A stretch of 64,000 bases of DNA from Pyrenula massariospora (Eukaryota; Ascomycota; Eurotiomycetes; Pyrenulales; Pyrenulaceae). Of the stretch, positions 1,788-54,210 are shown in pieces. Each line of letters starts with the position of its first letter. Position 1 is the first letter of the stretch. A program made the translations under genes and the position numbers. The notes below the pieces were generated by a model. The model made no database searches and was not told the DNA's origin. It saw only the letters and a program-made list of their open reading frames with translations. The stretch covers positions 806,001 to 870,000 of the forward strand of contig JAGFMI010000009.1 of the NCBI GenBank assembly GCA_021030905.1, given 5' to 3'.

Positions 1788-2900
1788 TCAAACATCATTA
1801 TACCCCACCACCATTCCCCCCACCCCCTTCCCCGCCACCGCCCAAGCCCACGCCCTCCCGGCCTCTCCCCCAAAAAGCCCCCACGGATGATCACTCCTCC
1901 TGCCCACCCCCACCCTCCCCAACCTCTCCGCACAACTCCCCTCCAGCAGCGCCATCCTCTCCCCCTCCCCCTCCAGCGCCAACGCATTCCCGCTCGCCCC
2001 GTGACACAGACACGCCTCCTTCTCGATATCCCCGCGCGCCCGCACGCACTCCTCCCCCCTCGCAATCGCCTGCGCGATCCTCGACGCGAGGGAGGGGTAG
2101 TGCTCCGCGATCGCGCGCAGGCTGATGAGCACCCCCGGCGCGCCGTGGCAGAACTGCACCAGCCGATCGCCGTTGCTGTCCGCGCTGCTGGTGGGCCAGT
2201 TGCCGGAGGGGAGCTGCGCGTCCAGGAGCGCCGCGAGGGGGGGCGCGAGGGCGGCGTAGACGGGGGTAGCGGAGGCCGGGGGGAGCAGGGTGGCGGCGGA
2301 GAGGGTGGTTTGGGTGATGATGCCGATGGTGCCGTGGGCGGCGCCGAGGTAGGGGAACCCGCGCCAGGTCCAGGGGTGGGGGGTGGTGAGGATGCGGTGG
2401 ATTACGGCGCGGGTGGTGGATTGGAGGGTGGTTGTTATTGTGTTGTTGAGGGAGGAGGGGGTTTTGGAGAAGTGGGTGTGTAGGCGGCGGAGGATGTAAA
2501 GGAGGCCGGAGAAGCCGTAGAGCCACTCGTTTGAACAGAGAGACGGATCATTTTGGGTGAACTGTGTGGCGGTGGTGCATAGCTCGCCGATTTTGGGACC
2601 AGCAGTCAACGGGTCGAGCAGGCAGGAGAGGGTGGTTGAGGAGAGGTAGTTGTTCGCGATGCCGCAGTGGGAGGGGTCGAGGTCTTTGGCTCGAGGGGTG
2701 TTATCGAAGTAGCGGCGTGCCCAAGTTTCTAGATCGTATCCTTGGACTTTGAGGTCAGGATAGAGAGGGGAAAGAGAGAGAAAACAGAGACTAATAGAGT
2801 CGAGGCCATCGAAGAAGCCTACTGAGCGAATTGGTGAGCCGGGGGGGCAACCCGTTAGAAGTCGGTTTAAGGAGGCAAGGAGCTCTGTCTCAGGATCCAT
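1788..2900 (-). CDS. LanC-like (LANCL) protein
   Basis: This single-exon gene encodes 370 residues from the ATG at 2898-2900. It shows the LanC signature motifs in order: GAAHGTIG (about 186-193), FCHGAPG (250-256) and LCHGASGN (298-305). Cys251, Cys299 and His300 match the three zinc ligands of the LanC/LANCL alpha-toroid fold. In bacteria LanC cyclases add Cys thiols to dehydroamino acids in lantipeptides; animal LANCL proteins add glutathione to dehydroamino acids in proteins. Which of these applies in fungi is not shown by the sequence. There is no signal peptide, so it is probably cytosolic, and no LanB/LanM partner or lantipeptide precursor lies beside it. Length fits the eukaryotic family. 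The coding strand turns G-rich over the last 300 bases. Family assignment is confident; the substrate is unknown. Confidence 0.85.
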   Translation of the reverse strand: MDPETELLASLNRLLTGCPPGSPIRSVGFFDGLDSISLCFLSLSPLYPDLKVQGYDLETWARRYFDNTPRAKDLDPSHCGIANNYLSSTTLSCLLDPLTAGPKIGELCTTATQFTQNDPSLCSNEWLYGFSGLLYILRRLHTHFSKTPSSLNNTITTTLQSTTRAVIHRILTTPHPWTWRGFPYLGAAHGTIGIITQTTLSAATLLPPASATPVYAALAPPLAALLDAQLPSGNWPTSSADSNGDRLVQFCHGAPGVLISLRAIAEHYPSLASRIAQAIARGEECVRARGDIEKEACLCHGASGNALALEGEGERMALLEGSCAERLGRVGVGRRSDHPWGLFGGEAGRAWAWAVAGKGVGGMVVGYNDV

Positions 2901-3507
2901 AGGGCCCGTTGTCGAGAAGTGTAGAAGAACGAAGAAACGGGCGCTACTCAGTGTTGTGAACTCTCAGTGATATCGCTTGCAGCGATCGAGCGTCTCTGCA
3001 TAGATGTTGCTCGATGGGTCCCCGCGAAAATGCCTACTCTTAATGAAGAAATTTGGATTGCGAAAGCCCTAATGTAGACATTTCAAGGAGTTTCCATCTT
3101 GTCGGTGTCTTTGTAAGTGGCTGTAAGGCATGCAATACCGAACTAAGTTCCAAGAACCACTGTAAAGGGAGACGCTTCCTTGAGAATGGTTAGATAGACA
3201 AAAGTCTGAGTCTCAGAAGGTGTGCTGCATTCAAATATTGGCCAGGCGGGCACCAGTGCCAGTAATCAAATGTGCTACAGATTGTGATCCCGGCTCTAAC
3301 TGTAAGAAGCCTGACTTATCTTCTACTAGCTTCGACGTTCCCACCTTTCCAATATTTACATTTATTACGATTACCTATTCTACTGCGTCTTAGTATGACG
3401 GAGCCAAACCTGACCAGCTCAGGAAGACAAATTACGCCTCCTCCATCCCGTTGCCCTCCCAGTCGGCGCCAGCACCTCTACACCGTGCGTTATCACTTTC
3501 TCCTCGA
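2901..3507. other. Intergenic
   Basis: This holds the upstream region of the LanC-like gene and the 3' flank of the GH5 gene. The only open stretch (3272-3511, plus) has no recognisable motif and I do not call it. Confidence 0.4.
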
Positions 3508-28357: not shown

Positions 28358-30753
28358 TTAAACGATATACATAGTTTCTTTTCTCATCTCGGGAAGGTCA
28401 ATGTTCTTGTCCATGTACTCGACCACTCCAATTCTCCGATACACCCTTGGGAACATCTGGACTTCTAGCGGATATCCGGCAAGGTGCTCATCTGGAACGG
28501 ATGCCAGGATCAATGCACGCTCATGTCCGCCATCTAAGGAGTACCTTAGCCAAAACACTTTTCGGCCAATTAGCTCAAAGCAGCGCTGCACGCTGTCCAT
28601 ATGGAAAGTCTGCGCATTCTCTCCCACATGCAGATCTGCCAGCAATGTTGACTGATACCCGTGATGTAATTCTCCCAGCGTGACTTCTGCAATCTCACCC
28701 GAGAGGAACAACCACCCGCTTGTCACCTCACCAAACGGATTTTGACCTTTCAAGGTAACGCCTGAGTTGCGTAGTTCAGTCTCGACAAAATAAAACGAGG
28801 TTGATTTCCCGCGATTGAGCCAGGCCACAGCTTGTCCAACGCTGGCCCAGCTCCAGCTCGGTGCAATATAGACTGCGCCATTGTTTCGTTCTGACCCGAC
28901 GGCTTTCCACAACAGCGAGCGGGGAGCAAATCCTGGCTCCATATTCCTGCGAGATAACATCCTGTCTCTACCCGGTACCATTTGCTGGCTAACCCGGCGA
29001 GTGCTGGTAACCAGTCTGATGATCGGGTTATAGATTTCGCTGAATATTCTGAAATGAGGGCACGCCATTCTAGGAGAGGGGTATCTTCTAATGGTGGGCG
29101 AGTGACAACGAGTCCTGGAAGTTGAATGCCAATAGGTCCCTTGGCCCCAGGCGGTGGTGAAGAAAGAGCTGGAGGTACGGACTCGTCTTTCTCCCTATCC
29201 CAAGAATAAGAAGTTATATAGCGCCGTGATGGGAGTAACCACTCTTCGGTAAAACCTGTCAGAAAACCACATTCGCAGTTCAACGCTGTGATACACTCGT
29301 ACACAATCTCGTCTTTGGTAAAATGCAGCACCTTTGTACCAAGTAGACGCTCTTGGAAACACCAGGCTCTCTTAAATAGTGGATAACCGGGATATGTTGC
29401 GGAATTATCAAGGTGTTTCGTAGAGAGATGAGCCTCTGCACCAGGTCCCCATGTGAATGGAGCATGGTTCAGTCCGTGTCTGGCAAATACCTGGAAAGGA
29501 ATCTGGTCTTGGTCTATCCCTGTTATGGTAACGTGTGCGGGCCTTGAGGAAAGAAGGCCTCCATCGCCGTCTACAGCAGCAGTAGCGGCAATGACAATTG
29601 AAGCGTTGTTGTATACTGTACCCATCTTTTCAGCTTCATTTTCCCAGTCTGTTAAATAATCCTGGATGATGCACAGGGAGTCGATCCATAGATACTGGGT
29701 ACCCAGACCACGTGTCATAACGATAGCATCTTGGAAAGTCCTAGGCAGCTTTATCCACGGAATATCAAGTTTCCAACTTTCGATGGTGCTTGTTTTGGAG
29801 ACGAGGTGCTGACTTTTGCCCCAACAATGAGAAAGTGCGACATACGAGCCTGTCAACTCTGACCGCTTGTCGTGGGATTCAATAATACGAATACCGGTCT
29901 TATGTTCTTTCCCTGTGTCAATGACTCGCGTTGGTAATGTGCTTCGAGAGTTTGCTGCTAGTTTCTTGCAGAGAGGATGCATGGAAACACATTCATCGTG
30001 CCATCGTTTAACTAGTCCGGCCACTTCGGCGACACTTGGATGTGTCATCAGGTGCCGTGTTTGGCCGCCATACCATGACCTGGCGCCATTGCTTGGCTGC
30101 TCGAATTTCATCGAAGATCCGATCGTAGGCCAAGGGCAGGGCTGACCTATGGTATGTGCATTGGTATAGGGCCACACTTAGCAAACAAAATACTTACCTG
30201 GTAATGTATAAAATTCAAAACGCGCGACTAGCTCACGTGATACTGCCTCTCGCAAGGGACCAAATATATCCATGCTTTCCTCATCCATAATAACACGGTA
30301 CAGCCAAACACGGAATATGTCTCCTCTACAGAAAACAAAATCCACCTCATTATCCGCGCTTTCTTTCCATGATTCTCCGTTACTTAATCTCATGATTCCT
30401 GTGGTCAGGATACTACAAGATGGACAGCCGTATTCGGCTTGCTTTACCATCTCGTGGAACAATGCTGTAAACTGCCACGAGGTATAATCTATGCGTGAAC
30501 TACCTGCCCAGACTGGTATAGGGTCGCTATCATCGTAGAGACCCTCGCATCTCGCCTGTTGCACATTCTCGCTTCCGGTTCCATGGTTGTGTATGCGGAT
30601 GTCTGGGCGTGGCAGAATGCTATGGGTAGTACCAGGTGAGAGGTTACAGCAAATTGAACAAAAAGACAAGTCCTTTCGAAGGTTTGTATTATATTCATTG
30701 GTGAGATCGACTGGATAAGGTTGTCTGTGGATGATGATATCGGGGGAAGACAT
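28358..30753 (-). CDS. HET-domain (heterokaryon incompatibility) protein, one frame change
   Basis: Exon 1 (30753-30198, ATG giving MSSPDIIIHRQ) and exon 2 (from 30146) are joined by a 51-bp GTAAGT...ATAG intron, restoring LPGQPCPWP. The N-terminal part has a Cys-rich HET prelude (FCSICCNL, YGCPSCSIL). The HET domain follows: YVALSHCWG, LPRTFQDAIVMTRGLG, YLWIDSLCIIQD, YNNASIVIAATAA and RAWCFQERLL. HET proteins trigger cell death after fusion of unlike hyphae. The C-terminal part, recognisable by NNGAVYIAPSWSWASV, lies in a different frame from about 28.94 kb down to 28358. So the gene is either broken once or the assembly has a small error there; I found no intron that would explain it. Confidence 0.8.
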
Positions 30754-31348: not shown

Positions 31349-33334
31349 ATGGCCACAAACGACTTGTACAAAAAGCTACCTCTGACATTACACGCTCAAG
31401 AGATACGGCTGATCAAGCTTCAGCCCAGTACCGACCCTGGGCCTATCGGGTGCGACTTATGTGTCTTCAATCTAGCCAAGTGCCCACCATATGTCGCATT
31501 GTCTTACACCTGGGGACCAGATGAGACATTTGCATAGATACTTGTCGCCGGGATTCTGGTTCCTATCCGTAGGAGTTTATGGATGTTTCTGGATCAGATG
31601 CGTAGAATCGGCAAACATAATTACTTCTGGATCGATGCGATATGTATAGATCAGTCTAATATTCAGGAGCGAAATCACCAGGTTCAATTGATCCGGAGCA
31701 TCTATAATGAAGCGCAGTTTGTGTTGGTGTGGCTTGGCGAGGAAGACAACCGATCCGACCTTGCAATGAGGCTCCTAAGTCATGCTACTCCTAGATCCCC
31801 ATTCTCGTTGAGACGGTTCGAAACAGACGCTCTCCTAGCATTATGAAGCAAGAATTACTGACGAAGGGTGTGGATTGTACAAGAGATAATGTCTGCCACG
31901 GCCCTTGTCTTTTACTGCGGCGGTAACAGCTGCGACTGGCAACAGTTTGCTGCTTATTTCAAGACATCGACAGACCTTGAATCCCGGAAAATAATTGGAA
32001 ACTATCCACCTGGCAAGGGCATCCTACACAGTTCTGCTGGAGCAATAGTAAGAACAAAACTCGGTCGGTATGGCAGAACATTTTCGTTGGTCACTTTGCT
32101 TTCAATCTTCTGTGACATGGAAAGCACTGATGTCCGAGACAAAGTGTGTGGCCTAGTTGGGCTAGCATCAGATAACCATGGAGTCGAAGTCGATTACTCA
32201 ATTGAGCCCGGAGATCTCTTCGACAGAGTACTAGCCAAAGCTTGGACATCGAAGGACTTGAAGACGTTCAACCAGCGATGGCAGTTTGCCCAAATGCTAT
32301 GGCAAACGTTACAAGTGGATCGTCCGATCAGTGTCAAAGATTCGTCTGGTTATGAAATTCTCATAGGCATTGAGCCGTCGGCGAGCAACCTTGGAGTAGC
32401 CTCTACCCAATGCCTAGACTTTCAACATGTCAATCCTACCCCTTTCCAGGAGCAGACGCCCCCCTTCGCACTTGGTTACCCTTCAGCCTCCTTCGTTCGC
32501 TATCCATCGTCACGCTATTCCAATAGTACCCCTCCGCTGAGTCGAAGCAACTCTGACATTTCAATTGAAACATCCCAAGTCTCTTGGCTTGGTGATTCTG
32601 ACCCGCATGCTGTGAATCAACAGCATCATTTCGCTCCCTTCACAACACAAAACCATGCTTGGGAAGCTGGGCAAGGCTATCAACCTGATAGATTGTTTCA
32701 AACCGGGTCCAAAAGTACTCATCATCAAACTGTTCGCCACGCCTCTCTTCTCGGTCATGATCAAATGTTCTCCAAACCCGATCATATCTCCTCGAGACAG
32801 CTCACTGCATCCAGTTCCTTCAATCCTCAATCTACTAGACAATACGTGTACGACTTAGATTCCAATAACAATTCCGAGGCCGACAGCATCAAGCCTACAG
32901 ATAGACGCACTCTAAGATACTTGGCGCGGAATTCTATAACTTTCCCTGGCTCTCAAGATCACGAGAATCAATCTACAGTCGGTTATTACGATCCGTACTT
33001 CTATACACAAGTGCTGAAAGGTAAGACTACCAGAGATGCTCGGCACAGATTCCCGTAGCATCAGCAGACAGCTCCTAGCGCGCAGAATTCAGACGTTCTG
33101 AGAATGAGTAACACGGAGTCTCAGCTTAGAGTTGCAAGCAGTAACTATCGAGGCCAGCAGTCCGTCAATCTTGGAATACACGGTAGACGGCCTAATTACA
33201 AACTCGTAGGGGATAATCATGAAGACGGGGAGTCGGATGATGATGCGGGGCTTGCTAGAGCACTTCATCGAGCAAAATTGACGACAGTAAGATCAGCAGA
33301 GACTGATGATTATTATAACTATCGCCATTTTTGA
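31349..33334 (+). pseudogene. HET-domain gene, broken
   Basis: One frame on the plus strand carries a recognisable HET protein over about 660 codons from MATNDLYKKLPL. It has CPPYVALSYTWGPDE, HNYFWIDAICIDQSN, AQFVLVWLGEED, RRVWIVQEI and a KVCGLVGLASDNHG block, then a long Ser/Gln/Pro-rich C-terminal region. The frame is interrupted about four times, all by stops and none by a frame change, and looks like a gene silenced fairly recently by point mutation (RIP-like or neutral). It is divergent from the neighbouring HET gene. Confidence 0.8.
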
Positions 33335-34611
33335 TATAGTATGATGAAATTCATTTTCTTCGATCTCTGCGATATGCAAATTGATTTCCTTGACATCGCC
33401 TTGCATCTCATAGCCTGCGAAAAGAAACGAGCCTTGTCTGGCTAGTTTTTTTGATCGCGGCCCCTACCGAGATATATTATGGTAGAGCTTGGAATAGAGG
33501 TAGAAATCTACGCTGTATGAGCCTTGGCAACATATTAGGAGAAAAAGGGTGTATGCTTTTAGGGTCACGTAGTTCGCTATCACGTCGACTTACAGGGTAT
33601 AGAGAATTTCTTGAAACATAACTAACATGATCATCAGAACGTGGGGTTGTGACCTGAAACGACCATTTGCTCTCGAGAGAGCCTAACAGGTTTGTTTTAA
33701 ACTTTATGCTAAGGCCATTGACGACGAGGTTAATTATGTAGTCTTCCAGGGTGAACCTTGACGGTGACGATAAGGAGGTTAGTTAAGGTGCAGGTCAATG
33801 ACGGGAGGTCCTTATGCAGAGTCTAGGGACTGGTGTCGGAGAAGATGGTGTGAAAGAGGAGAGATTAGTCTAACAATTAAGGCCGTGGTCCAGTGTGATC
33901 CAGAGAGGAGGAATGAAGGTTGGGGGCGAGACTGTGGCACTAGTTAACGATGAGCCTCAGGTAGGCGTCGCGCGACGCAGCTGACCGATTCCTGAAACAG
34001 GGTGAAAGAGAGGCAATTTTTGCTGTCTTGGCTAGAGATCGCGTAATTCATATTATCTGCCGCTCTTACTCTCCTGCTATTAATATCATTATTTTGCTCG
34101 TGAGACGCCTTACAACTGTATCGGCTCCCTTTCCTCGCCTTGCCTGTCTCCTGTTCGAGGCAATACTAAGCATATTTATTGATTTTGAAGCCATCTCTCT
34201 TCAACTAGCTCGCTTCCTAAAAGCCAATCCTATGGCTGCGCGCGCGAACATGGACCTTTTTCTGACCTTCACATGTAGGAGAAATTTCGTAGGAAAAGCA
34301 CCCAGAGCCGAGCTGTATTAGTACATCTGCCTCCATCTTTCTACATGAAGTCTAAGAACATCATTTGCTGGTCTGAATGCACAATGACATAGGTGTTGTG
34401 GTGTTCCTAACACCACAACCGCCGCTAACATTGTCCCTCCCGTGTTTGCCCATGGGGTAAATTGAAGCGAAAAAAGCAATATACATGCATCTATTCTGCG
34501 GGGTAGATAAATATACAAACCCTGCTCTCTTGTCCAATCTAGCTATCGTCCCTCTCTTATCCATCTTGTGTTACAAACGAAACGAAGTCCCTTACAAAAT
34601 CTGTCTTCAAT
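33335..34611. other. Intergenic upstream of the repeat-peptide gene
   Basis: No supported gene. It contains a 14-bp perfect palindrome (33965-33978). The last 110 bases hold an AT-rich GATAAATATACAAA stretch near 34506 and a pyrimidine-rich leader (about 34520-34570), which is a normal fungal promoter layout for the gene at 34612. Confidence 0.45.
33965..33978. repeat. 14-bp perfect palindrome
   Basis: GCGTCGCGCGACGC is its own reverse complement. It is very CpG-rich in a moderately AT-rich spacer; a dimeric factor site is possible but not shown. Confidence 0.7.
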
Positions 34612-35104
34612 ATGAAGCTCGCGATACTCCTTGCTCTGACCGCGGCAGTCTCTGCCCTCCCTTACCCGAACCCAGAAATTGATGAATTGCACGTGAGAGC
34701 GCCACCAGAGCCGGTACCTATTGACCTTGCCTGGGTCTTCCCATCTCTCGTTGGATTACACCAGCTCACATGACTCAGGATGACCAGATATACAAAAAAT
34801 CACTTCCCGAACCAGACGATGGTTTGTACAAAAAGTCTCCCCCAGAACCTGTCCGTTTGACCTTATCCAAATTATCATATCACCACAGAGCCAACTTTCT
34901 TACACCTTACAGGATGATCAGATATACAAGAAATCGCTCCCCGAACCGGACGACGGCCTCTATAAGAAGTCTTCCCCGGCGCCTGACGATGGCTTGTATA
35001 AGAAATCTGCTCCACAGCCGGTGCGTTCCGTTCGACCCTTCCAGTATCACTGGGTATTGTAACGACTAGTTAATGTTGTATAGGATGACGGCCTGTACAA
35101 ATGA
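34612..35104 (+). CDS. Secreted repeat-peptide precursor with dibasic (Kex2-type) sites
   Basis: Four exons (34612-34713, 34779-34850, 34913-35020, 35084-35104) are joined by introns of 65, 62 and 63 bp, all GT...AG and all phase 0, giving exactly 100 residues. The signal peptide is MKLAILLALTAAVSA, then a short acidic leader ending APPEP. Next come five 12-residue units: DDQIYKKSLPEP, DDGLYKKSPPEP, DDQIYKKSLPEP, DDGLYKKSSPAP, DDGLYKKSAPQP, and a final DDGLYK. Cleavage at KK in the secretory pathway and trimming would release Tyr-ended decapeptides such as SLPEPDDGLY. This is the architecture of Kex2-processed repeat proteins, which include precursors of ustiloxin-type cyclic peptides and secreted signals. 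No UstYa-type gene lies in the window. There are no Cys or Trp residues, unlike alpha-pheromone precursors. The mature product and role are unknown. Confidence 0.85.
34779..35101 (+). repeat. Tandem 12-residue coding repeats interrupted by introns
   Basis: Units begin at 34779, 34815, 34913, 34949, 34985 and 35084, each starting with a GAT or GAC Asp codon pair. Exons 2 and 3 start with the same two-unit block, differing almost only at silent sites. Confidence 0.9.
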
Positions 35105-36256
35105 GATGCTCACTCGATGGATTATCCCCTTGAGGAGCAGGATGACTCTTAGTAGGGCGATGGTGTGTACGGCCAGCGAGGGAGAGTAGTTGGACACAAC
35201 GTTTGCAATTGGTTTGCGGGACTGCTTGTTTATAATCCCTCATCGAAAAGTATCACGTATTGCACATACCGCAAAACCTTTGCATTACTCAATCTTACAT
35301 AACACTTCTATATGTCTCATTTTCTCCCTAGCACTTGCAAAGCTACATCTAACCTCTCATTCTACCCCAATATACACGTCGCGCCTCTTCCCTCCACAAG
35401 CCAGCCCGAGTCCGTCCACCTTTTTCGCGCCTCCAGATTCCAGCGGTCCCCTCACAAGAACGAACCATAAACAAATCAGCATCTTCAAACACCCCAACAT
35501 TTCCAGCTCTACCACCAGATTCCCCTACTCTTTACACTTCTAACTCCCACCACTTACACATGCTATACTCCCTCTCTCAGCTCAACTCGCCTCACCATCC
35601 CAAACCCAACCCAACCCAGTCGTAACTTGCGAAATATCTACCCAGCTTCATTCTGCAAATCATCAACAAACCACCTCACAACGTCCCAACAAGCTCCCAA
35701 ACCAAGATATGCCCCCATCAAACCTACTTGCGCGACACCAAGCGAGCCGTATATCCAGCGTGCCCCACCCCGTCCCATAGCCCCCGAAGCGATTGCTCAG
35801 TTCGCGCATAGCACTTCTCTATATTTCTCACCTTACAACCTTACTGCCTACTTATGACCTCTTTGTTAAAATTCAATTCGGTTCCTAAGCATCGACCCCG
35901 TGACTAAAGATCGCATTTCGCCCTTAAGATCAAGGTTCAGAAGAAAGGCTCTAATATTAGAGATAACTCTGTCAACGAAAACAGGACATCGTGGAGATCA
36001 CGCGAAGTCGCTGCAATTAAGCGACATAGCTTTTAACGAACGACATGTGAGACAAGATCTGACCCGAAATTGCACCGCCAGCGCGGCACAAATTGATCCG
36101 TGCTGATACTCCTTCCCATCTGGAGCCATCCTAAATACATTAGATTACCACCATCTGACTACTCGTCTTCGCATTGCTCAGCCTAGCTCCCTCGCTTATC
36201 TTGACCATATCCTCGAATTTTCTCTTGGTCTCCTCAATCCCGCTTTCGCGGATCTT
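35105..36256. other. C-rich intergenic stretch
   Basis: Plus-strand sequence from about 35300 to 35870 is C/A-rich with ORFs of 70-120 codons lacking any motif or plausible splicing. I do not call a gene. The minus frame from 36256 to about 36131 continues the small secreted protein frame past its stop. Confidence 0.35.
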
Positions 36257-36679
36257 CTATTCTGACTCGCGCTTTTCATCCATGGTCGAAACCCAGTGAT
36301 CAATGACGGGACCAGATTGGCGGTTTTTGTGAGGCTGTGCGTCATTTTTAGCTACTGGGAATTCGTTCCAGGAGTCCAATTTCTGGTTATTGTTGATACG
36401 ATGTTCATCGCTGCTAATTATCTCAGTCTCTCTATCATTGTCGCCATTGCTGTCTCTGACTTGGACCGGGTCGTCAACATCGACATTGCGCTTCAGAAAA
36501 TTCGAGAACTTATTCAGGAAGACTGGAGGTTGAACGTAGGCCTCTGGGAGGTGGGACCGGACATTGTTGGAATCTTCATGCTGAATTGAGGCATTTTTCA
36601 AAGGAGAGGCAGTGGTACCAAGGATCGAGCAGCAGAGAAGAGAAAGGATGAGGGGAAGTTGGATCAGAGTTGAAGTCAT
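36257..36679 (-). CDS. Small putative secreted protein
   Basis: The ATG at 36677-36679 starts 140 residues. The first 25 (MTSTLIQLPLILSLLCCSIL then GTTAS) form a clear signal peptide. The mature part is hydrophilic, rich in Asp, Asn and Glu, with LKR and EKR dibasic sites but no cysteine pairs, so it is not a classical Cys-rich effector. The TAG stop is followed in frame by about 40 more coding-like codons (KIRESGIEETKRKF and on) before the next stop near 36131, so the original protein may have been longer. It faces away from the repeat-peptide gene 1.1 kb off. Function unknown. Confidence 0.5.
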   Translation of the reverse strand: MTSTLIQLPLILSLLCCSILGTTASPLKNASIQHEDSNNVRSHLPEAYVQPPVFLNKFSNFLKRNVDVDDPVQVRDSNGDNDRETEIISSDEHRINNNQKLDSWNEFPVAKNDAQPHKNRQSGPVIDHWVSTMDEKRESE

Positions 36680-52084: not shown

Positions 52085-54210
52085 TTATCGAACATTAGTA
52101 TCGACGTCTGGAAAGGCTGAATGCAGTCCGTACGGAGTAAAAGGTGGATCAGTATTTGTCTCAAAGAAGTCTTTGTTTTCTGAGCACAAGTCTGCCGCGG
52201 GATAGCTACCTAGATAGACACGCTCATCGCGTTGAATCCTGAAGAGCCTGGGCACAAATAGCTTTGAGTAAGCCTGCGGACGCATCGAAGGAGTCTCCAA
52301 GAGACCACGGGCATAGAAGACTTGCCCCCGGTAGTCCCCATCTCGGGACCCAAGAGTAAGGTCCAGCTTGATGACTGAAGCCTCCATCTCGGTCGTGGCC
52401 CGTGGTTTGAATCCCTGCGTCCAGAAGCAGACCAAGTGGGTCCCGGCTTGGGTCTGCTTTATTCAGCATTTTTTCGCTAGAGAGATGCAAATTTCGTCAA
52501 ATGTCATGTTGTAGTCGACTAGAATCAAAGGGGTATGGTCCTCTGCGGACGGAACCATGGGATGGTGGTCAATCGTTTGAAGACCGAGGAGAGCAAAGAT
52601 CACGTCCTTCTCTTCACTCTTTTTGAAGGCTGCTGTCAGGCGTAGCAATTGCAGAAACGAGATTCGAAGGGGGTACTGTAGATTATGAGCGGTAAGTTGC
52701 CCAAGTCTAAAAACAAGATATGCATTATAAATATTCGACAGCTGAAACTTTTGGACAATGTCGTCGTATGATGTTCTCATGATAGCGGATGCCACTCCAA
52801 TCCATTTCCAGTCAATGCGGAAATTGTGGTAGAGAACGTCGACCCGTCGGGATAGCGCTACCTCTTGTATGACCCATTTGCGACCGAACCACGAAGATCG
52901 AAATAGACAGTCAAGTGGATGCTTGGCAGCATCAATGTTCGCATATGATGGTAGCTAGTTGAAGTCTCGTCGACCACGTTCCGAGTTCTCACTTGTCCAA
53001 GGACACGATGCTCTAGAGCCGTCAGAGCAGGATCCAGGGTCTAGCGAAAAATACTCTGCGGTGCCCCAACCACCACTGTTTTCACTGACAATGTGGCAAA
53101 TTGTACTCATTGCAATTTCGGGGTCGTGAGATGTCGATGTGTTGTCGATGGTGTCTGCCGCCGAGGGTGTTCGAGCCATTCCTAGCCAAACGATGGTTCG
53201 GTAGGCTTGAATATAAATTTGTGACACAGCCTGAGTCTGTTCGCTTCTTTCCTTTAAATTCTTCTGATCAATACAGATGGCATCGATCCACAATGTTCTG
53301 ACATGTAATGGATCTCTGATGCGAGTCAGGGCGAGCGCAAGGCTTGTTTAAACCCCTAAAGCATTTCCATTGCAAAGCACCTCTAGAGCTTGTCCCTCAT
53401 CACGCCGCTACGGTTCTGATATGAGTTAGAATCTCTATTCAATAACAAGCTGGACGGTAATCTACCAGCTGTGATATTATTCTCGCCTTCGCCTTCATGC
53501 CACGCATAAGAGAGACTTTCATACCTCTTGCGCATTTCGCTTCTGCGAAAAGCCTTGAGAAAGCACGACAATGGCGTCGAAAAGTCCCGACCGGGTTCCA
53601 GAAAGAGCAGTCGAAACCACGAGTCATCGGGCAGAGGCTCATATAACGCACAACTAGAATTTAAGGAGAGCAATCCCACGTCCACTTTCGGAAAGTACCA
53701 TTCAAATTTCAACAGATGAGGAGCTGGCAATTTTGGAACTGCCGCTGTGTCGCGTCCGGCACCACCTACGGTAGAAGAGAAGGTCCTGACTAGACGGAGG
53801 CAAGAATTTGCCAAGGTCAGCCTTGCCGCCTATAAAGTCCAGAGGCTCAGTGTCAGAAGTACACTTACAATCTCTACTATCAGTCAACACTTTCCTTTGC
53901 GAGTCGACGCGATAAAATGAAACTTGGCCACCAATGACACCCAAGTTCTGCCATCCCAACTCTGCTTCTGGGGTACGGTCGCTTTCAGCACTAGTCTTCG
54001 TACCAGACAATTAAAATTCATGCCATTTCTGCAAGGAACAATTAGCGCTAGCTCAAGCCAGTGCCCGCTTAATTGAGGGCTGGGCGTGTCGATGGAGAAT
54101 AAAGGTGCTACTAGGAATATATCAAAAAGAACCGCACTTTCCTGTAAGAAGGAAGACGGCTTCACCTTTCTAGCTTTGAAAGTCCAAGGTTCTTCGTCTA
54201 AGTCACTCAT
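52085..54210 (-). pseudogene. HET-domain gene, broken
   Basis: The minus strand from about 53.8 kb carries YEPLPDDSWFRLLFLEPG, RKRYESLSYAWHEGEGE, then LWIDAICIDQKN, YRTIVWLGMA, RKWVIQEVALSRRVDVLYHN and DVIFALLGL, the classical HET order, and near 52.35 kb a GPYSWVPRWGLPG block. These pieces lie in several frames. One clear intron (branch TTCTAAC) sits after the SYAW block, but other interruptions remain. An upstream piece from 54210 (MSDLDEEPWTFKARK) may be a first exon. I judge it a decayed gene with several breaks. It is convergent with the zinc-PLC-like gene. Confidence 0.7.

Follow-up and report, generated by a model that had tools for sequence, protein, structure and literature searches.

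What is made from a four-exon gene whose spliced product carries six near-identical DDxxY units separated by lysine pairs? This question is raised by a locus in the window, that is, the whole analysed stretch of 64,000 nucleotides (C33:806001-870000) of the Pyrenula massariospora genome, which was searched over 37.8 Mb in 33 contigs. Peptides of fungal KEX2-processed repeat proteins (KEPs) are numerous and mostly without known function; the roles established so far are those of pheromones, toxins, wall factors and effectors. The gene described here quite probably encodes a protein of this kind, from which secreted, most likely linear DDxxY peptides would be released.

Gene model and architecture of the precursor

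The initial annotation had placed a gene with three introns at this locus, encoding 100 residues with six repeats; its coordinates and all of these features proved correct in the gene model (Table 1).

Table 1. Features of the precursor gene and its immediate surroundings (positions in the window).
Feature	Position	Strand	Basis
Whole coding region, four exons, probable 100-aa KEX2-processed repeat protein	34612..35104	+	gene model, translation, synonymous pattern between copies, relative P0001
Exon 1: signal-peptide-like stretch and leader LPYPNPEIDELHVRAPPEP	34612..34713	+	translation, hydropathy
Intron 1 (predicted), 65 nt, phase 0, P/DD joint	34714..34778	+	prediction
Exon 2, 72 nt: DDQIYKKSLPEPDDGLYKKSPPEP	34779..34850	+	gene model
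Intron 2 (predicted), 62 nt, phase 0, P/DD joint	34851..34912	+	prediction
Exon 3, 108 nt: DDQIYKKSLPEPDDGLYKKSSPAPDDGLYKKSAPQP	34913..35020	+	gene model
Intron 3 (predicted), 63 nt, phase 0, P/DD joint	35021..35083	+	prediction
Exon 4: DDGLYK and stop (TGA)	35084..35104	+	gene model
Possible worn-out further DDxxY unit(s) past the stop	35138..35170	+	CAG/GATGAC joint at 35138, GGCGATGGTGTGTAC at 35156, interrupted by stops
Perfect inverted repeat GTTGTGGTGTT-CCT-AACACCACAAC, 11-bp arms, 3-bp spacer	34395..34419		193-217 bp upstream of ATG
TATA-like ATAAATATACAAA	34507..34519	+	about 100 bp upstream of ATG, by eye

The spliced product begins with MKLAILLALTAAVSA, which is followed by the leader and the repeat array DDQIY-KKSLPEP-DDGLY-KKSPPEP-DDQIY-KKSLPEP-DDGLY-KKSSPAP-DDGLY-KKSAPQP-DDGLY-K. 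The six DDxxY units (DDQIY, DDGLY, DDQIY, DDGLY, DDGLY and DDGLY, in this order) are separated by five KKSxPxP linkers. All five dibasic sites of the precursor are KK, and KR and RR are absent; only one K follows the last unit, and one R, not KK, stands ahead of the first. Mean hydropathy is +2.4 for residues 3-15 versus -1.5 for residues 17-100. The first 15 residues form the hydrophobic N-terminus, with a fitting cut after AVSA, and they likely represent a signal-peptide-like stretch that would be removed at this point. Translation and hydropathy support the earlier description of a secreted-type (putative) N-terminus, a short leader and near-identical units separated by dibasic sites.

A KEP repeat, as defined in a passage of PMC7329392, comprises at least three tandem repeats of at least 8 residues between KR, KK, RK or RR; the array contains four 10-residue units between KK sites in addition to two end units. 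The precursor plan proposed in the initial annotation matches KEPs in the sense of the defining passages of PMC6339444 and PMC7329392, with which the window gene shares a signal-like N-terminus, at least three near-identical units and small size. According to a passage of PMC7329392, the mean number of KEPs per ascomycete strain is 5.25. A difference from the KEPs as surveyed is that predicted introns in phase 0 interrupt the units of the window gene. Neither survey uses intron, exon or splic- in its main text, and the literature search found no matching paper on introns in such precursors; for the Epichloe gene gigA, passages of PMC9233826 give no intron detail, and in those of PMC5514056 "gig-" mostly stands for giganteus.

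All three predicted introns have GT..AG borders, all three are in phase 0, and each splits a unit at the P/DD joint; judged by eye, intron 1 has a weak donor, GTACCT. Splicing at the three joints is read from the nucleotide sequence. If predicted intron 1 were retained, the protein would end before the first unit and contain no DDxxY units; two units would be left on retention of predicted intron 2, and five of the six on retention of predicted intron 3, which is therefore the least supported of the three. When exons 2 and 3 are omitted singly or jointly, the frame remains intact, and four, three or one units remain. Since the introns are all in phase 0 and lie at the same P/DD joint, exons 2 and 3 have the appearance of frame-neutral cassettes that arose by duplication. 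Introns 2 and 3 have a common stretch, equalled in 0.75% of 2000 shuffles, while the similarity of intron 1 to intron 2 (50% of shuffles) and to intron 3 (74%) is unremarkable. Because only one pair exceeds the shuffles, there is weak support for the introns having arisen from each other, and the common joint and phase are better evidence than intron sequence similarity. The exon layout suggests that such precursors may gain copies by duplicating intron-flanked cassettes.

Selection on the units and their conserved core

Fifteen bases distinguish the two 72-nt copies, one of which is exon 2 and the other the opening 72 nt of exon 3. Thirteen codons are changed, 11 of them synonymously and 2 non-synonymously. 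The two residue changes compare with a mean of 9.9 in simulations, and none of 100,000 simulations gave a value as low. As the copies differ mostly synonymously, the spliced frame encodes, or until recently encoded, a protein under selection. When residues 17-100 were shuffled, two DDxxYK occurred in 5 of 100,000 cases, and more than two never did.

The initial annotation had recognised no counterpart of the repeat. This has to be corrected, since a protein search found a relative, P0001 (92 aa, E=1.6e-4). It was the single match at E up to 10 in 5.8 billion proteins, a count that need not reflect rarity. The C-terminal side of P0001, VPEPDDGLYQRAEEAPGSDDGLYRRVKAPDIDDGLYRRADAPESDDGLYRA, contains four DDGLY units followed by QR, RR, RR and RA (the protein end). 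A basic residue thus follows the tyrosine in three of the four units, RR in two, and proline is at position -3 in all four. P0001 differs from the window protein in its linkers and in having RR or QR in place of KK. Its four units lie within one open frame, and the splitting of units by introns is not common to the two genes. The called N-terminus of P0001 is without a clear signal peptide by eye; like the finding of a single relative, this counts against the KEP reading, but the start was perhaps miscalled.

When the ten units of both proteins are compared, D1, D2 and Y5 never vary, nor does the proline at -3 (10/10), and G3 and L4 are present in eight. The tyrosine is followed by a basic residue in nine units and by two basic residues in seven; the remainder are QR, the terminal K and RA. 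The linkers diverge between the two proteins. Given that DDxxY and the proline at -3 are kept while the linkers are changed, DDGLY, not the whole decapeptide, is likely the conserved core. A core that is fixed while its surroundings change points to a specific receptor or target.

These data also bear on a secreted repeat protein working uncut or as wall-bound fragments, like the Rep1 peptides of Ustilago. The window product is predicted to be a small, acidic, secreted-type repeat protein, and a passage of PMC6339444 describes Rep1 as cut by KEX2, with the peptides attached to hyphae, which speaks for such a function. The basic residues that follow the tyrosine in nine of the ten units, two in a row in seven, argue against it, as does the length of the DDxxY units, which fall far below the 37 aa given for Rep1 peptides in a passage of PMC6339444. 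We consider this explanation very unlikely, and the KEP reading is retained.

Other searches were made with the precursor. A two-sequence profile of the precursor and P0001 revealed nothing beyond P0001 among 1706 candidates, and a 203-aa composite query gave no match at E up to 10 among 7977 candidates (P0001 is too short to count among them). Neither the viral contigs (20 pattern stretches) nor the prokaryote contigs (93) contained a confirmed relative, as expected for a fungal gene. The precursor had no match in Pfam and NCBIfam (E up to 0.01 and 1) or among solved structures (E up to 1). In a protein search of the genome for paralogues, all three matches were exons of the precursor gene itself. 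A degenerate DNA pattern matched the genome ten times: five matches are exact and lie within the precursor gene, and five elsewhere have one mismatch, versus six in a reversed-pattern control. In the full texts searched, DDGLYK does not occur, DDGLY yields nothing on fungi by title, and further DDxxY strings yield pseudorabies virus only; such strings may be tabulated in the supplementary lists of the KEP surveys.

There is good support for the window gene as a new KEP within the published class, one whose core is conserved and whose exon layout is unusual. A broader proposal can be made tentatively, and we regard it as rather doubtful: DDGLY would be the core of an undescribed family of secreted fungal peptides, preserved as the linkers and the cleavage sites (KK or RR) vary. 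Its units would here be placed on frame-neutral exon cassettes, and how many peptides a precursor yields, and which ones, would depend on the skipping of exon 2 or 3 (6, 4, 3 or 1 units), with the frame left intact.

Proposed processing of the precursor and probable nature of the products

In the proposed processing, the N-terminus would lead the precursor into the secretory pathway, kexin would cleave after each KK, and a KEX1-type carboxypeptidase would strip the lysines. The expected products are acidic peptides with a free C-terminal tyrosine, [SA]xPxPDD(G/Q)(L/I)Y, which may be trimmed further at two XP dipeptides to DDGLY and DDQIY. Most likely they would be linear peptides with an extracellular role, either in signalling or in encounters with other organisms.

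An XP-XP tract lies directly before DD in all six window units (PP-EP, LP-EP, SP-AP or AP-QP), and the residue ahead of it is Ser, or Ala in the first unit. Because of this extra residue, DDGLY would need one more aminopeptidase step. The tract is found in one of the four P0001 units, the second XP being absent in the other three. The mature peptide is possibly the decapeptide or the DDxxY pentapeptide, and both product sets are kept. These predictions give exact masses to look for: the computed [M+H]+ values are 1105.505 for SLPEPDDGLY, 1160.511 for SPPEPDDQIY, 1021.447 for SSPAPDDGLY, 1062.474 for SAPQPDDGLY, 582.241 for DDGLY and 653.278 for DDQIY.

The genome contains one match to the kexin-type P_proprotein domain (C9:270925-271095); a stop interrupts it, which may reflect an intron. 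The next frame at this locus contains the end of the P domain below the cut-off (E=0.0015, 19 versus 21 bits) and, by eye, a hydrophobic membrane stretch and an acidic tail. Kexins have such a membrane stretch and acidic tail, and the match likely reflects a kexin enzyme encoded in the genome. Two matches to DPPIV_N could be STE13-type enzymes. According to a passage of PMC6339444, KK is a less usual KEX2 site, which counts against the KEP reading; a passage of PMC9769878 documents linear peptides released from KEPs by cleavage at basic pairs and, apparently, at single arginines.

Ascomycete alpha pheromone precursors resemble the window protein in having a signal, a leader, copies spaced by dibasic sites and XP dipeptides. 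STE13 removes XA/XP dipeptides directly after the KEX2 site, as stated in a passage of PMC6339444, and the two XP dipeptides before DD in every window unit form a tract of this type. However, one residue intervenes between KK and the tract, which is therefore out of register, and XP-XP is present in only one of the four P0001 units. In addition, the short acidic DDxxY core has neither the two-Cys nor the PYG[LM]P[IV]G motif that a passage of PMC6339444 gives for pheromones. The genome's own alpha pheromone was not found: the PYG pattern had no genome matches, and the C..PGQ.C pattern had 20, each alone in its open frame, with one match in the reversed-pattern control. Split genes could escape either pattern, and this comparison therefore carries a slight doubt. 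An alpha-type mating pheromone precursor is a very improbable identity for the window protein, and the KEP reading is preferred.

A further alternative is a cyclic peptide of the dikaritin type, in which a UstYa-type oxidase, with its gene at another genomic site, would cross-link the KEX2-cut units through tyrosine. The invariant tyrosine, one per unit, could equally be a cross-linking residue, and UstYa (PF11807) gave 82 rows genome-wide at E<=0.001, where rows are exons and not genes. The DDxxY core also stands directly before the dibasic site, as the core does in asperipin-2a precursors. Like the dikaritin precursors UstA, PhomA and asperipin-2a, as described in a passage of PMC6514808, the window protein is a secreted-type precursor with several cores, basic-pair cuts and a conserved Tyr. 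The frequency of tyrosine in KEP repeats, 65.6% with UstYa neighbours versus 38.2% without (passage in PMC7329392), leans mildly to a cyclic product.

Against this, UstYa has no match in the 64 kb window; two rows on the same contig, within C33:606827-607521, are the nearest, about 233 kb away, whereas published KEP-UstYa pairs are on average 3.09 genes apart (passage in PMC7329392). Ten matches to the H..HC motif in six window frames include none that is UstYa-like by eye. Pfam revealed no tyrosinase, methyltransferase or UstYa in the spliced precursor and 39 open frames, taken from 164 window frames of at least 90 aa, many of them small or overlapping. The YxI motif is absent from the units, and unlike dikaritins, the window gene has neither a UstYa neighbour nor a YxI(G/P) or FYYTGY core. 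According to a passage of PMC7329392, UstYa genes adjoin 22% of KEPs, so the window resembles the other 78% in this respect, which was counted for the KEP reading. The UstA-type modification suggested in the initial annotation is therefore unsupported. A cyclic UstA-like product is possible, given that every unit has a tyrosine and that UstYa genes are present in other parts of the genome; we judge it improbable, and a linear product is the better bet.

Flanking sequence and neighbouring genes

Past the stop codon, the 15-mer GGCGATGGTGTGTAC has two mismatches to a DDGLY unit. On its + strand the window has four copies of the pattern [CT]AGGATGA[CT], three at the exon joints and one at 35138; its - strand has none. 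With both strands counted, two 15-mers within two changes of a DDGLY unit are found in the window outside the gene, and eight more at three changes. These signs, noticed after the fact, are suggestive of the remains of a lost unit. Upstream of the gene, the inverted repeat listed in Table 1 is unique in the window in combining exact 11-bp arms with a spacer of 0-12, and it has no second genome copy at up to 3 mismatches; it is a possible candidate regulator site.

A second small protein of the secreted type (predicted; 140 aa, two KR pairs) is encoded at 36260-36679 (-), about 1.2 kb from the precursor gene; it matched nothing in Pfam (E up to 0.01) and nothing else in the genome. Pfam identified HET, DUF924 and, below threshold, PI-PLC-X and APH in the scanned window frames. 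The heterokaryon-incompatibility (HET) stretches are at 28753-30177 (-), 31538-31843 (+) and 52958-53347 (-); two of the three lie upstream of the precursor, no more than about 6 kb away. HET genes together with numerous UstYa stretches would fit a filamentous ascomycete; a search for 5.8S rRNA gave no match. Further off in the window are GH5, an ABC transporter, an aminotransferase, a short-chain dehydrogenase, a GH79 C-terminal domain, WD40 and a LanC-like frame at 1791-2963 (-) (PF05147, E=1.5e-24).
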